Below, piece after piece: positions 24,936-28,284 of a stretch of 64,000 nt of DNA. A model generated the notes under the pieces. The model was not told the DNA's origin. It saw only the letters and a list, made by a program, of their open reading frames with translations, and did not search any database. The DNA is taken from the NCBI GenBank assembly GCA_002840405.1, contig PHAR01000002.1:186001-250000 (forward strand). The letters are read 5' to 3'. A program made the position numbers and the translations under genes. Position 1 is the first letter of the stretch, and each line of letters begins with the position of its first letter. The DNA comes from Deltaproteobacteria bacterium HGW-Deltaproteobacteria-8. GTDB taxonomy: Bacteria > Desulfobacterota > Desulfovibrionia > Desulfovibrionales > Desulfovibrionaceae.

Positions 24936-25574
24936 ATGCGCAAACCGACCATCGGACTGAGCCTGGAGGGCCTGCCCTCCATCGGCCTCTCGGCTTTCGC
25001 CACCATTGTCTTCGCGGCCATGGGGTGGTGGCTTTTGGCCCTGATCCTGCTCGTGGTCACCGGCTTTGTGGTGCATTTCTTCCGCGATCCCGAGCGCGTG
25101 ACCCCGGAGGACCTGGACGCCGTGGTTTCCCCGGCGGACGGCCGCGTCTGCAAGGTGGACTTTGCGCCGGACCCCGTCAGCGGGCAGATCCGCCAGGTCG
25201 TGTGCGTGTTCATGAACGTCGTCGACGTGCACGTGAACCGCGCCCCTGTTGAAGGCAGCGTGGAGCTCATCCGCTACATCCCCGGCAAGTTCTTCAACGC
25301 CAGCCTGGACAAGGCAAGCACGGACAACGAGCGCAACATCGTGGTCCTGGGCCGGGGCGCGGAGCGCTTCACCGTGGTGCAGATCGCGGGACTCATCGCG
25401 CGGCGCATCGTGTGCTGGTCCGAGCCTGGGGACATCCTGCGCCGGGGTGAGCGCTTCGGTCTGATCAAGTTCGGGTCCAGAGTTGACCTCTACCTGCCCG
25501 ACGGCTATGCTGTGAAGGTGTACGTGGGCGAAACCGTCCGCGCAGGCGAGACGGCAATCGCCGTCCGCAAGTAG
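24936..25574 (+). CDS. psd: Phosphatidylserine decarboxylase (short, archaeal-type)
   Basis: Converts phosphatidylserine to phosphatidylethanolamine at the inner membrane. 212 aa with a hydrophobic N-terminal hairpin (about residues 14-44), VVSPADGRVC, NVVDVHVNRAPVEG, GKFFNASLDKAS and NERN. The self-cleavage site is the GS of KFGSRVDLYLP near residue 180, whose serine becomes the pyruvoyl group. ATG 24936 has AAGGAG upstream. The substrate-making enzyme pssA follows 27 nt downstream, so the two steps are one operon. Confidence 0.94.
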   Translation: MRKPTIGLSLEGLPSIGLSAFATIVFAAMGWWLLALILLVVTGFVVHFFRDPERVTPEDLDAVVSPADGRVCKVDFAPDPVSGQIRQVVCVFMNVVDVHVNRAPVEGSVELIRYIPGKFFNASLDKASTDNERNIVVLGRGAERFTVVQIAGLIARRIVCWSEPGDILRRGERFGLIKFGSRVDLYLPDGYAVKVYVGETVRAGETAIAVRK

Positions 25575-25601
25575 TTCAAGCCGGGGCAACCTGGGAGTCG
25601 T

Positions 25602-26369
25602 ATGGTCAAGGAAAGGGCATTGCCGCGTCACAAGGGCGTGTACATCCTGCCGAACCTGTTCACCACCGCGAGCCTGTTTTTGGGCTTCATGGGGATGATC
25701 TGGGCCATTGAGGGCCTGTACGAGTACTCTGCCCTGTGCATCCTGGGGTCGTGCCTCTTCGACGGCCTGGACGGCAAGGTGGCCCGGCTCACCAACACCA
25801 CCAGCGAGTTCGGGGTGCAGTTCGACTCCCTGGCCGACCTCGTGGCCTTTGGCGCCACCCCGGCGCTGACCGTGTACCTTTGGCAGTTGCACACCTTTGG
25901 CACCCTGGGGCTCATGGCCTCCTTTCTGCTTATCGCCTGCGGGGCGCTCAGGCTCGCGCGCTTCAACGTGCAGTCTTCGGTGACGAGCAAGAAATTTTTC
26001 GTGGGCCTGCCCATCCCGGCCCAGGCCAGCACCCTGGCCACGCTCATTCTCTTTGCCCCGAACCTGCCGGAAAAATTGATCGTCGACGTGCTGCCCACAG
26101 TCTGTCTGGTCCTGGTGTATGTGTTGTCCTTTCTCATGGTCAGCACCATGCGCTACGCCTCTTTCAAGGAGTACGGGTTCATCAAGGCCCACCCCTTCAG
26201 CTCCATGGTCACGGTGATCCTGCTCTTCGTCATGGTGGCCTCGCGCCCCAAGATGCTGGGCTTCCTCTTCTTCCTGGGCTACATCATCTCCGGCCCCATC
26301 TACACCATGTTCATCCTCTCCCCCCGCAGTTCCAAGCTGGTATCGCCCAAGGAGACCCAGCAAGGCTGA
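25602..26369 (+). CDS. pssA: CDP-diacylglycerol--serine O-phosphatidyltransferase
   Basis: Makes phosphatidylserine from CDP-diacylglycerol and serine. The CDP-alcohol phosphatidyltransferase signature (DGxxARx8GxxxDxxxD type) is visible in DGLDGKVARL followed by EFGVQFDSLAD. 255 aa with about 7-8 membrane segments, consistent with the membrane-bound subclass. The start is ATG 25602. The gene supplies the substrate for Psd encoded just upstream. Downstream lies the leu leader region. Confidence 0.94.
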   Translation: MVKERALPRHKGVYILPNLFTTASLFLGFMGMIWAIEGLYEYSALCILGSCLFDGLDGKVARLTNTTSEFGVQFDSLADLVAFGATPALTVYLWQLHTFGTLGLMASFLLIACGALRLARFNVQSSVTSKKFFVGLPIPAQASTLATLILFAPNLPEKLIVDVLPTVCLVLVYVLSFLMVSTMRYASFKEYGFIKAHPFSSMVTVILLFVMVASRPKMLGFLFFLGYIISGPIYTMFILSPRSSKLVSPKETQQG

Positions 26370-26489
26370 GCCAGGGGCCGGGAATTTTTATCCGCCACCA
26401 GTTTTGACGCTGGACAAGGCGTGTGGGAACATGGCATTGAATTTGAGCGCGACCGTCCCTTTTGACTGGCCCGCGCAAAAGAGAACACG

Positions 26490-26579
26490 ATGAGCAATCG
26501 AACCATCCGCACCGAAATCCGCACCACGCTGCAAAGCGTCGCCCTAATCCTACGCGAGTCCCAGAAGGACTCCCTGTAG
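26490..26579 (+). CDS. Leucine leader peptide of the leu operon (29 aa)
   Basis: A short reading frame ATG 26490 to TAG 26579 encodes MSNRTIRTEIRTTLQSVALI followed by LRESQKDSL. Codons 19-21 are CTA-ATC-CTA; CTA is a rare leucine codon in this GC-rich DNA, the same trick used by the E. coli leu leader. Codons 18-30 themselves form the left and right arms of a terminator-like hairpin. It sits 151 nt upstream of leuA. The Shine-Dalgarno (AAGAGA) is weak. A TTGACG at 26404-26409 may be the -35 of its promoter. The assignment is inferred from position, codons and structure. Confidence 0.7.
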   Translation: MSNRTIRTEIRTTLQSVALILRESQKDSL

Positions 26580-26597
26580 GCCGGGCTTTTCTTTTTT
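26541..26597 (+). terminator. Attenuator hairpin and U-tract overlapping the leu leader peptide
   Basis: A stacked hairpin: GCCC (26541-26544) with GGGC (26583-26586), CCTAC (26549-26553) with GTAGG (26576-26580), and GAGTCC (26556-26561) with GGACTC (26567-26572) around a CAGAA loop. That is 15 bp with two small internal loops, followed directly by TTTTCTTTTTT (26587-26597). The left arm includes the CTA-ATC-CTA control codons, so a ribosome stalled there would prevent the hairpin forming. Confidence 0.72.
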
Positions 26598-26675
26598 CCC
26601 TCTCTTCTCTTTAAAAGTCCTCGGTCCAGGGAGCACCCTCTGGGACTTACCACGTGCGCGGGCATTCGCCCGCGC
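26557..26675 (+). promoter_or_regulatory. Alternative long-range pairing and leader hairpin before leuA
   Basis: The segment AGTCCCAGA (26557-26565) can pair with TCTGGGACT (26639-26647) and CTCCCTG (26570-26576) with CAGGGAG (26627-26633), a 16-bp long-range helix that excludes the attenuator hairpin. A separate 8-bp hairpin GCGCGGGC / GCCCGCGC with an ATTC loop follows at 26656-26675. The region from 26370 to 26730 holds no other gene. Its role in leuA control is inference. Confidence 0.5.
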
Positions 26676-26730
26676 GTATTGCCAGCAATTCAGTAAACAG
26701 ATAGGTTCCCAATCCACGTGAGGAGGATAT

Positions 26731-28284
26731 ATGTCAGACCGCGTGTACATTTTCGACACCACGCTGCGTGACGGCGAGCAGTCGCCCGGCGCCACCATGA
26801 ACCAGGAAGAGAAGGTCAGCCTCGCGCGCCAGCTCGAAGCCCTGGGTGTGGACATCATCGAGGCGGGCTTTCCCGCCGCAAGCCAGGGCGACTTCGAGTC
26901 TGTCCAGGCCATCGCCCGCTGCATCAAACACATCCAGGTTGCGGCCCTGTGCCGCGCCCTGACCAAGGACATCGACCGCGGCTGGGAGGCCATCCGGGAC
27001 GCCGCGCATCCGCGCATCCACACCTTCCTGGCCACCAGCGAAATCCACATGACGCACAAGCTGCGCAAGACGCGCGAGCAGGTGCTGGAGATGGCCGAGG
27101 CGGCCGTGAAGCACGCCGTCTGCCTGTGCCCCAACGTGGAGTTCTCGGCAGAGGACGCCTCGCGCTCGGACTGGGAATTCCTGGCCAAGGTCTGCGAGGT
27201 GGTCATCCGCGCCGGGGCCACCACCGTGAACATCCCGGATACCGTGGGCTACGCCCAGCCCTTTGAGTTCGGCGAGCTCATCACCTACCTTCTCAAGACC
27301 GTGCCCAATGCCAAGGACGCCGTGTTCAGCGTGCACTGCCACAACGACCTGGGCCTGGCCGTGGCCAACAGCCTCTCGGCCATCCGGGCCGGGGCGCGGC
27401 AAGCCGAGGTGACCCTCTGCGGCATCGGCGAGCGCGCGGGCAACGCCTCCCTTGAGGAGCTGGTCATGGCCCTGCACACCCGCCACGGGCTCTACCAGCT
27501 CGACTGCGGCGTCAAGACCGAGCAGCTCTACCCCTCCTGCCGCCGCCTCTCGCAGATCATCGGCCAGCCGATCCCGCCCTACAAGGCCATTGTCGGACCC
27601 AACGCCTTTGCCCACGAGTCCGGCATCCACCAGGACGGCATGCTGAAGAACCCGCTGACCTACGAGATCATGACGCCCGCGTCCGTGGGCCGCAAGGGCA
27701 CGGAAATGGTCATCGGCAAGCACTCCGGCAGCCACGCCATCAAGTCCAAGCTGACCGAGCTCGGCTACGCCCTGGACGACGCCCAGCTGGCCGTGGTCTT
27801 CGCTGCGGTGAAGGAGCTGGCAGACAAGAAGGAGCGTGTGTTCGACGAGGACGTCGAGGCGCTGGTCCTGGAGATGGTCTACCGCCGCCGCGACAAGTAC
27901 CGCCTGAAGGACATGAGCGTGTTCTCGGGCACGGGCGGGGTGCCGCCCCACGCGGCCATGGTCATGGAGATCCTGGACGGGGAAAAGGTGGCCGAGGTGC
28001 GTCGCCACTCGTCCTTTGGCGAGGGGCCTGTGGACGCTTTGTTCAAGTGCATCGGGGCCATGGTGGGCTACGCGCCCGCCCTGGACCGCTTCCAGATTAA
28101 CGCCGTCACCGGCGGCACGGACGCCCAGGCCACGGTGACCGTGCGCATCGAGCACGAAGGCAAGAAGTCCGTGGGTCGCGGCACCAACGAGGATATCCTT
28201 GTCGCCAGCGCCATGGCCTTTATCAACGCACTCAATCGTTTGGAGAAAATGAGGGAGGAGAAGAGCGAATGTCCCACAATTTAG
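26731..28284 (+). CDS. leuA: 2-isopropylmalate synthase
   Basis: Condenses 2-oxoisovalerate with acetyl-CoA, the first step of leucine synthesis. Motifs: IFDTTLRDGEQSPGATM, EAGFPAASQGDFE, SVHCHNDLGLAVANSLSA, CGIGERAGNASLEEL, HESGIHQDGMLK. The C-terminal regulatory domain (about residues 390-505) is present, so leucine feedback inhibition is expected. The 517-aa length is normal. ATG 26731 follows GAGGAGG. Its end overlaps leuC by 16 nt. Confidence 0.97.
   Translation: MSDRVYIFDTTLRDGEQSPGATMNQEEKVSLARQLEALGVDIIEAGFPAASQGDFESVQAIARCIKHIQVAALCRALTKDIDRGWEAIRDAAHPRIHTFLATSEIHMTHKLRKTREQVLEMAEAAVKHAVCLCPNVEFSAEDASRSDWEFLAKVCEVVIRAGATTVNIPDTVGYAQPFEFGELITYLLKTVPNAKDAVFSVHCHNDLGLAVANSLSAIRAGARQAEVTLCGIGERAGNASLEELVMALHTRHGLYQLDCGVKTEQLYPSCRRLSQIIGQPIPPYKAIVGPNAFAHESGIHQDGMLKNPLTYEIMTPASVGRKGTEMVIGKHSGSHAIKSKLTELGYALDDAQLAVVFAAVKELADKKERVFDEDVEALVLEMVYRRRDKYRLKDMSVFSGTGGVPPHAAMVMEILDGEKVAEVRRHSSFGEGPVDALFKCIGAMVGYAPALDRFQINAVTGGTDAQATVTVRIEHEGKKSVGRGTNEDILVASAMAFINALNRLEKMREEKSECPTI

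Follow-up and report, generated by a model that had tools for sequence, protein, structure and literature searches.

The leu operon in the window, a 64,000-nt stretch of the genome of Deltaproteobacteria bacterium HGW-Deltaproteobacteria-8 (order Desulfovibrionales), is probably controlled by a ribosome-mediated leucine attenuator that uses the 3' end of an open reading frame as its sensor. Our best reading is that the element works like known leucine attenuators but relies on an unusual sensor. This sensor is in most cases the pssA tail, with a control codon predicted to pair with the stop codon and, in the window, a sensing hairpin that is itself a candidate terminator. For the order as a whole, we lean slightly towards a dual-use frame, in which the last dozen codons of pssA also sense leucine for the leu operon; the output would mostly not be an intrinsic terminator, and the window would be a free-leader case with its own terminator. 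A ribosome finishing pssA probably also reads the leucine supply of the cell.

In the proposed mechanism, the last control CTA and the stop codon form the opposite ends of hairpin 1:2, and the second half of the 1:2 stretch would pair alternatively with a downstream segment (2:3, the long helix). Low Leu-tRNA(CUA) would stall the ribosome, blocking hairpin 1:2 (T1 in the window) and letting the long helix form, and leuA would be expressed; with leucine present, the ribosome would finish and leave, 1:2 would form, with termination at T1 in the window, and leuA expression would fall. The frame is free in the window, where 1:2 is lengthened and followed by a U-tract, making it potentially able to terminate transcription when ribosome-free. 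In most loci of the order that we examined, the frame is pssA, and ribosomes completing this phospholipid gene would sense leucine. The steps based on sequence are the frame, the tail-confined CTA bias, the specificity of both helices for their own partners, and the occurrence of the tail in pssA as well as in free leaders. The effect of the ribosome is a modelled step: on a CTA codon it destroys 1:2 but leaves most of the long helix intact, and at the stop codon it destroys both.

Leader frame and competing helices in the window

The operon has the gene order leuA-leuC-leuD-leuB and is preceded by pssA, itself preceded by a phosphatidylserine decarboxylase gene according to NCBIfam (Table 1). 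NCBIfam identifies leuD only at the LeuD/DmdB subfamily level. The leuC frame as annotated begins 16 nt before the end of leuA (28269-28284), an overlap that suggests translational coupling. The window pssA ends in ...SSKLVSPKETQQG, without CTA. Between pssA and leuA, the 29-codon frame of the original prediction is present as described, with CTA-ATC-CTA at codons 19-21; among the 416 Leu codons of 12 window genes CTA appears once, whereas it makes up two of the four in the leader ORF.

Table 1. Features of the pssA-leuA region (positions within the window)
Feature	Position	Strand	Basis
pssA, CDP-diacylglycerol--serine O-phosphatidyltransferase	25602..26369	+	NCBIfam TIGR00473, 122 bits (cut-off 107)
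Candidate promoter P1 of the stand-alone leader, TGGACA-N18-CATTGA	26411..26440	+	by eye, weak
Leader ORF, 29 codons, TAG stop, MSNRTIRTEIRTTLQSVALILRESQKDSL	26490..26579	+	reading frame same as pssA
Control codons CTA-ATC-CTA, leader codons 19-21	26544..26552	+	codon reading
Hairpin 1:2 (T1), 16 bp; control codons in left arm, stop codon in right arm	26541..26586	+	fold
Long-range helix, 5' arm (leader tail, stop codon, start of U-tract)	26557..26590	+	fold, permutation test
U-tract TTTTCTTTTTT directly behind T1; 11 nt, ten U	26587..26597	+	sequence, own terminator scan
Long-range helix, 3' arm	26613..26647	+	fold, permutation test
Hairpin T2 (GCGCGGGC-ATTC-GCCCGCGC), no U-tract in window	26656..26675	+	terminator scan, alignment
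Candidate leuA-proximal promoter P2, TTGCCA-N17-TAGGTT	26679..26707	+	genus alignment A2
leuA Shine-Dalgarno, AGGAGG	26721..26726	+	sequence
leuA, 2-isopropylmalate synthase, first gene of the operon	26731..28284	+	NCBIfam NF002086 and TIGR00973, above cut-off
leuC	28269		
leuD	29622		
leuB	30134		

Two mutually exclusive helices involve this frame. The original prediction placed a 15-bp hairpin here, followed at once by an 11-nt U-rich tract; its position and the tract are confirmed, and the pair count is 16 rather than 15, in three blocks (4+6+6) with one G-U pair among them. For 26541-26587, the predicted folding energy is -23.0 kcal/mol (z -3.68), a value equalled by one of 200 dinucleotide shuffles. 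A competing helix had likewise been foreseen, at 16 bp; it exists, and extends to 30 bp, with a fold of -41.4 kcal/mol over 26557-26650 (z -4.59; 0/200 shuffles equally good). The leader ORF as a whole folds only mildly above shuffles (z -1.88). The leucine attenuator reading of the original prediction is supported, with the control CTA codons inside the hairpin. The classical trp attenuator, too, has control codons within its hairpin 1:2, so the novelty does not lie in this feature by itself; what is odd, as the sequence reads, is the U-tract directly behind hairpin 1:2.

A generic consensus scan of 26300-26800 returned no terminator-like and no sigma-70 promoter-like sites. It expects an uninterrupted stem and a loop of 3-8 nt, for which the T1 stem does not qualify, and it missed both candidate promoters. 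For P1, the pattern TGGACA-N18-CATNNN was recognized by eye in five stand-alone loci of the genus (L001, L087, L088, L090, and L092). P2 is a conserved candidate sigma-70 promoter downstream of the attenuator and immediately upstream of leuA: its TTGC and TA are kept in the genus, with a TTGC-N19-TA pattern in 12 of 13 loci. Given this position, P2 would bypass the attenuator if it is a promoter. Hairpin T2 has a U-tract in two relatives (L090 and L092); a coupling of T2 to the long helix via a GGGAC-CCC stretch was considered by eye and dropped. Rfam searches of 25500-27500 up to an E-value of 5 gave three matches, all below the gathering score, the best being a miRNA family (E 0.14); at the gathering score, neither the leu leader nor the T-box or the other listed RNA families matched in this region or in 11 relatives.

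Control codons at the end of pssA across the order

The comparison covered 136 family loci (132 of 133 matches, i.e. 110 + 22 with G015 omitted for its missing leuA start, plus four genus members) and 54 of 55 matching genomes from other families (G193 omitted, start missing). We define the tail as the last 12 codons of pssA and, for the codon counts, the fused class as loci with the pssA stop at most 200 nt from leuA. CTA occurs in the tail of the upstream pssA in 123 of 190 loci, made up of 73 + 5 of the 136 family loci (L005 not counted) and 45 of the 54 loci from other families. The codon counts within the family are based on 114 distinct loci, the first ones read, together with the duplicate L005, whose leuA upstream sequence equals that of L086. 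There, pssA lies upstream of leuA in 96 loci, 68 of them with a gap of at most 200 nt. In these 68 fused loci, 103 of the 176 tail Leu codons are CTA, compared with 46 of 2463 in the pssA body; from the usage of the genes themselves, 5.0 tail CTA codons would be expected. At least one tail CTA is found in 62 of the 68 fused loci; six have none, as do seven of 52 linked loci from other families. Of the 28 family loci with a wider pssA-leuA gap, 12 have a CTA tail, and among 22 further family loci pssA lies upstream in nine, five of them with a CTA tail.

The same holds in the five other families, where pssA lies upstream in 52 of 54 loci (the PssA match of L288 is doubtful) and a CTA tail was found in 45, with CTA at 48 of 94 tail Leu codons vs 55 of 1831 body codons. 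Fused loci with CTA include those of Desulfomicrobium (L006) and Desulfonatronovibrio (L007); in Desulfovibrio, CTA was found in L009 and L010, with none in L008 and L021. In L196, CTA CTA is present just beyond the 12-codon tail, and L161 keeps the hairpin with CTG in place of CTA. This codon evidence argues strongly that, in most loci of the order examined, the control codons lie within the C-terminus of an unrelated enzyme.

PssA genes that do not adjoin leuA served as a control. A search of 18 of the 19 loci lacking pssA before leuA (L174 was left out, its contig beginning 155 nt before leuA) gave PssA in 15 genomes, with CTA at none of seven tail and two of 543 body Leu codons; three of the seven tail codons come from L202, which is cut by a contig end. 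Since the unlinked PssA lack the tail CTA, the CTA tail travels with leuA and not with PssA. This bears on the reading of the tail as an arrest peptide or as a feature of the PssA protein, with CTA and the RNA pairing as by-products. The tails are indeed alike across genera (LLRESxxELS), but the final residues vary (LS, LG, IT, SD, PS), the CTA bias is synonymous and largely tail-confined, and in free leaders the tail occurs apart from PssA, all of which, together with the control, makes such an origin very improbable. We give still less credence to an ordinary terminator next to a small frame that arose by chance and senses no leucine: the free leader is indeed predicted from sequence and the consensus scan was negative, but codon bias and conservation extend across six families.

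Leaders were called in 105 of 115 loci, 74 fused and 31 free; the ten without a called leader (L151, L154, L161, L168, L174, L178, L179, L191, L195, and L196) were left out, except that L161 was included in the clade consensus folds. Free leaders were chosen partly by their Leu/CTA codons, so their CTA content is no independent evidence.

The switch between fused and free forms is best seen within the genus of the window, where leuA was obtained from 13 of 15 genomes (the window is L001). The original prediction missed that the element is, by sequence comparison, the 3' end of pssA in most relatives examined. Conservation of its short frame holds in part: a free frame is present in seven of the 13 genus loci, and in the other six the same codons terminate pssA. 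The latter (L085, L086, L089, L093, L094, and L095) have no stand-alone leader; their pssA ends in ...SKLLRESQKEPS or nearly so, reading CTA CGA GAG TCC ... TCG plus stop, and leuA follows 129-168 nt after the pssA stop. In L001, L087, L088, L090, and L092, the PssA end differs and a separate ATG frame carries ...LR(E/L)SQ(K/R)... to its stop; L091 and L096 likewise have free leaders. The free leader shares the pssA reading frame in four of the five loci tested. A LeuA tree built from 34 loci requires at least six changes between fused and free, with four forced by well-supported branches; judged from these sequences, the two forms alternate and the control codons have moved more than once between pssA and a leader.

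Only the final CTA is common to all 13 genus loci, at codon -9 or, in L094 and L095, codon -10. The original prediction had linked the intervening ATC to isoleucine, but ATC or ATT precedes the final CTA in just four genus loci (L001, L088, L090, and L092), with TTC, CTC, CTG, or AGC in the other nine. As the ATC codon is not conserved, isoleucine co-sensing was rejected.

Several loci show further variants of the tail. The PssA tails of L091 and L096 (SKLQRDSQKGPQAS and SKLLRDSQKGSQPS) resemble a decayed control tail that has lost CTA, and the pssA 3' end of L198, also a free-leader genome, has the same decayed look without CTA. A CTA-tailed pssA is retained in L230, L231, L232, and L248, where leuA begins 466-794 nt downstream. 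In L125, L126, and L130, a CTA-tailed pssA is followed by a second small frame before leuA (MAHAV...NLRL, by eye), possibly forming two attenuators in series. A recurrent CCCC(U/A)CAUA-like motif, likewise noted by eye, lies ~10-25 nt past the pssA stop in members of several families (L213-L252).

Helix conservation, ribosome masking, and the output step

In 79 loci (57 distinct sequences), CTA lies exactly nine codons ahead of the stop, and this fixed spacing permits an ungapped comparison. Because the MAFFT alignment A1 gapped two rows (L101 and L153), pairs were counted on ungapped 30-nt tails. Pairing of the control codon with the stop codon defines a register with 72% standard pairs over ten positions, compared with 25-42% in the eight neighbouring registers, and positions 4-10 of hairpin 1:2 show several pair types among the 57 distinct sequences. 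In simple tail folds, CUA is paired with the stop codon in 39 of the 74 fused loci and in 14 of the 31 free ones.

Conservation of the stem in relatives, on which the original prediction had asked to be judged, is borne out, as hairpin 1:2 and the long helix both pass permutation tests; since the permutations retain the relatedness among loci, the helices are supported, not proven. For hairpin 1:2, tested on leaders from the first 115 loci together with 40 loci of other families, also the first ones read, but not on the 36 loci added later, own arms average -7.97 vs -5.23 kcal/mol for permuted arms, with 0/20000 permutations as low, and with 20 dissimilar sequences only, 10/20000 were as low. 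Across the 13 genus loci, the long helix gave values of -36.3 vs -31.9 kcal/mol (0/20000), and its inner part alone gives -19.2 vs -17.5 (48/20000). The 3' segment ends 49-71 nt past the stop codon in the genus; because alignment A2 puts the 3' arm of L091 two bases off, the invariant ends of the arms were used to locate them. Consensus folding of 18 clades served as a guide only. In that of one genus (L106-L108, L110-L112, L114, and L121), the control codons appear paired with a downstream segment, with apparent compensatory changes, and this segment can also form a hairpin of its own; these loci appear to have a different switch layout.

How a ribosome would act on the two helices was modelled with a 28-nt footprint, assessing T1 in the RNA ending at 26597. 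Placing CTA-19 in the A site leaves T1 four of its 16 pairs, and placing CTA-21 or the stop codon there leaves none; the long helix retains 29, 19, and none of its 30 pairs at these three positions. As T1 is broken at CTA and stop codons alike and the long helix differs, stalled and finishing ribosomes would be told apart mainly by the long helix. The proposal that a stalled ribosome masks the terminator is therefore true but incomplete: a ribosome on the stop codon breaks T1 too, so T1 masking alone cannot sense leucine. In this model, T1 can form only before the ribosome arrives, if it lags far behind, or after it has left.

Intrinsic terminators are unevenly distributed. Our own scan found one in 20 of 31 free and 19 of 74 fused loci, compared with 17 of 105 mononucleotide shuffles. 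Five free-leader members of the genus (L001, L087, L088, L090, and L092) showed a strong terminator immediately after hairpin 1:2, with weaker ones in L091 and L140. The absence of a terminator from most fused loci would fit a translational attenuator, in which the state of the long helix sets access to the leuA start site via an anti-Shine-Dalgarno segment and T1 is only incidental, found in a few species. In one group (L189, L194, L196, and L174), segments that complement the Shine-Dalgarno vary together with that of leuA, by eye, and in the window the start site has an openness of 0.37 when a ribosome sits on CTA, 0.12 when it has reached the stop, and 0.22 when no ribosome is present. Across loci, however, the contrast between stall and stop was inconsistent (12 up and 14 down among 74 fused, three up and three down among 23 free loci, eight free loci being omitted because they had no CTA or too short a gap), and a general start-site switch was rejected because masked folds gave no consistent effect. 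Compared with no ribosome, a stalled one raised openness in 17 and lowered it in seven of the 74 fused loci, and in five and three of the 23 free loci. We therefore regard translational output as a tentative option with well below an even chance. Stability is a further candidate, besides start-site access and Rho, for the final step in species that lack a terminator.

The low number of intrinsic terminators in fused loci would also suit Rho-dependent termination, with a pyrimidine-rich stretch past the stop loading Rho once the ribosome has left, and a stall or the long helix preventing this. In the genus, the loop is indeed G-poor and pyrimidine-rich (G 0.05-0.24 in 37 nt). Yet the bias over all loci is slight, with G at 0.21 vs 0.26 further on in fused loci and below half of C in only 25 of 74 fused and eight of 31 free loci, and the naked stretches are short for what Rho is generally taken to require, so we consider a role of Rho unlikely.

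Comparison with known attenuators

Amino-acid attenuators are taught as dedicated leader peptides. If our reading is true, leucine supply is tied to the translation of a phospholipid gene, the otherwise odd conserved PssA tail is explained, and attenuators can hide within annotated genes, beyond the reach of leader-peptide searches. Some members of the order can be grown and engineered, which makes the idea directly testable. The element was unreported in the literature searched, which comprised open-licence papers only and thus does not establish novelty in print; a term search of the accessible part of PMC545781 found no mention of leucine or leuA.

The trp/leu type shares with our element a predicted leader frame with end-product control codons, as judged by frame and CTA bias, and mutually exclusive helices, one including the control-codon region, as computed here. 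In that type, a finishing ribosome permits the terminator and a stalled one prevents it, a logic that T1 does not follow in our static model; for this reason, we do not file the element as a strict trp/leu-type attenuator.

The leuL attenuator of enterobacteria, listed in Rfam as Leader_leu, uses alternative RNA helices. In the window, by contrast, the U-tract lies behind hairpin 1:2 itself, the rival helix closes downstream, and there is no Rfam match; moreover, the frame is pssA rather than a leader peptide in most relatives examined. Like our element, the leuL attenuator belongs to a leu operon and has rare CUA control codons in its leader; according to the available text of PMC1183508, CUA is the predicted most suitable leu control codon in Escherichia coli, and replacing CUA by CUG in the Salmonella attenuator lowered its sensitivity.

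In other genera of the family, two groups of leu leaders (L185-L188, L193, and L256; L254, L266, L268, L269, L271, L272, and L274) are also short, Leu-rich, and located before leuA. The second group has CTA shortly ahead of the stop, as here, and in L254 the CTA lies clearly inside a hairpin spanning the stop codon. Unlike the window, both groups have an ordinary terminator with a U-run beginning ~54-73 nt past the leader stop, a classical design.

A possible likeness exists to tnaC and Rho, where the output may hinge on what follows the leader stop codon. In TnaC, free tryptophan leads to nascent-peptide arrest, whereas no arrest peptide is indicated here.

For an entire gene in the role of leader, the precedent is rph-pyrE attenuation in E. 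coli, in which a complete upstream gene is the leader and translation near its end decides the expression of the next gene; the signal there is UTP, acting via coupling, and is not codon-specific. The fused relatives carry control codons and hairpin in the end of pssA, which may act as a leader, with putative co-transcription and regulation; the window is the un-fused case. Compared with rph-pyrE (Bonekamp 1984, as cited in the reference list of PMC6941894), the difference is that here the end-product control codons lie within the last codons of the upstream gene.
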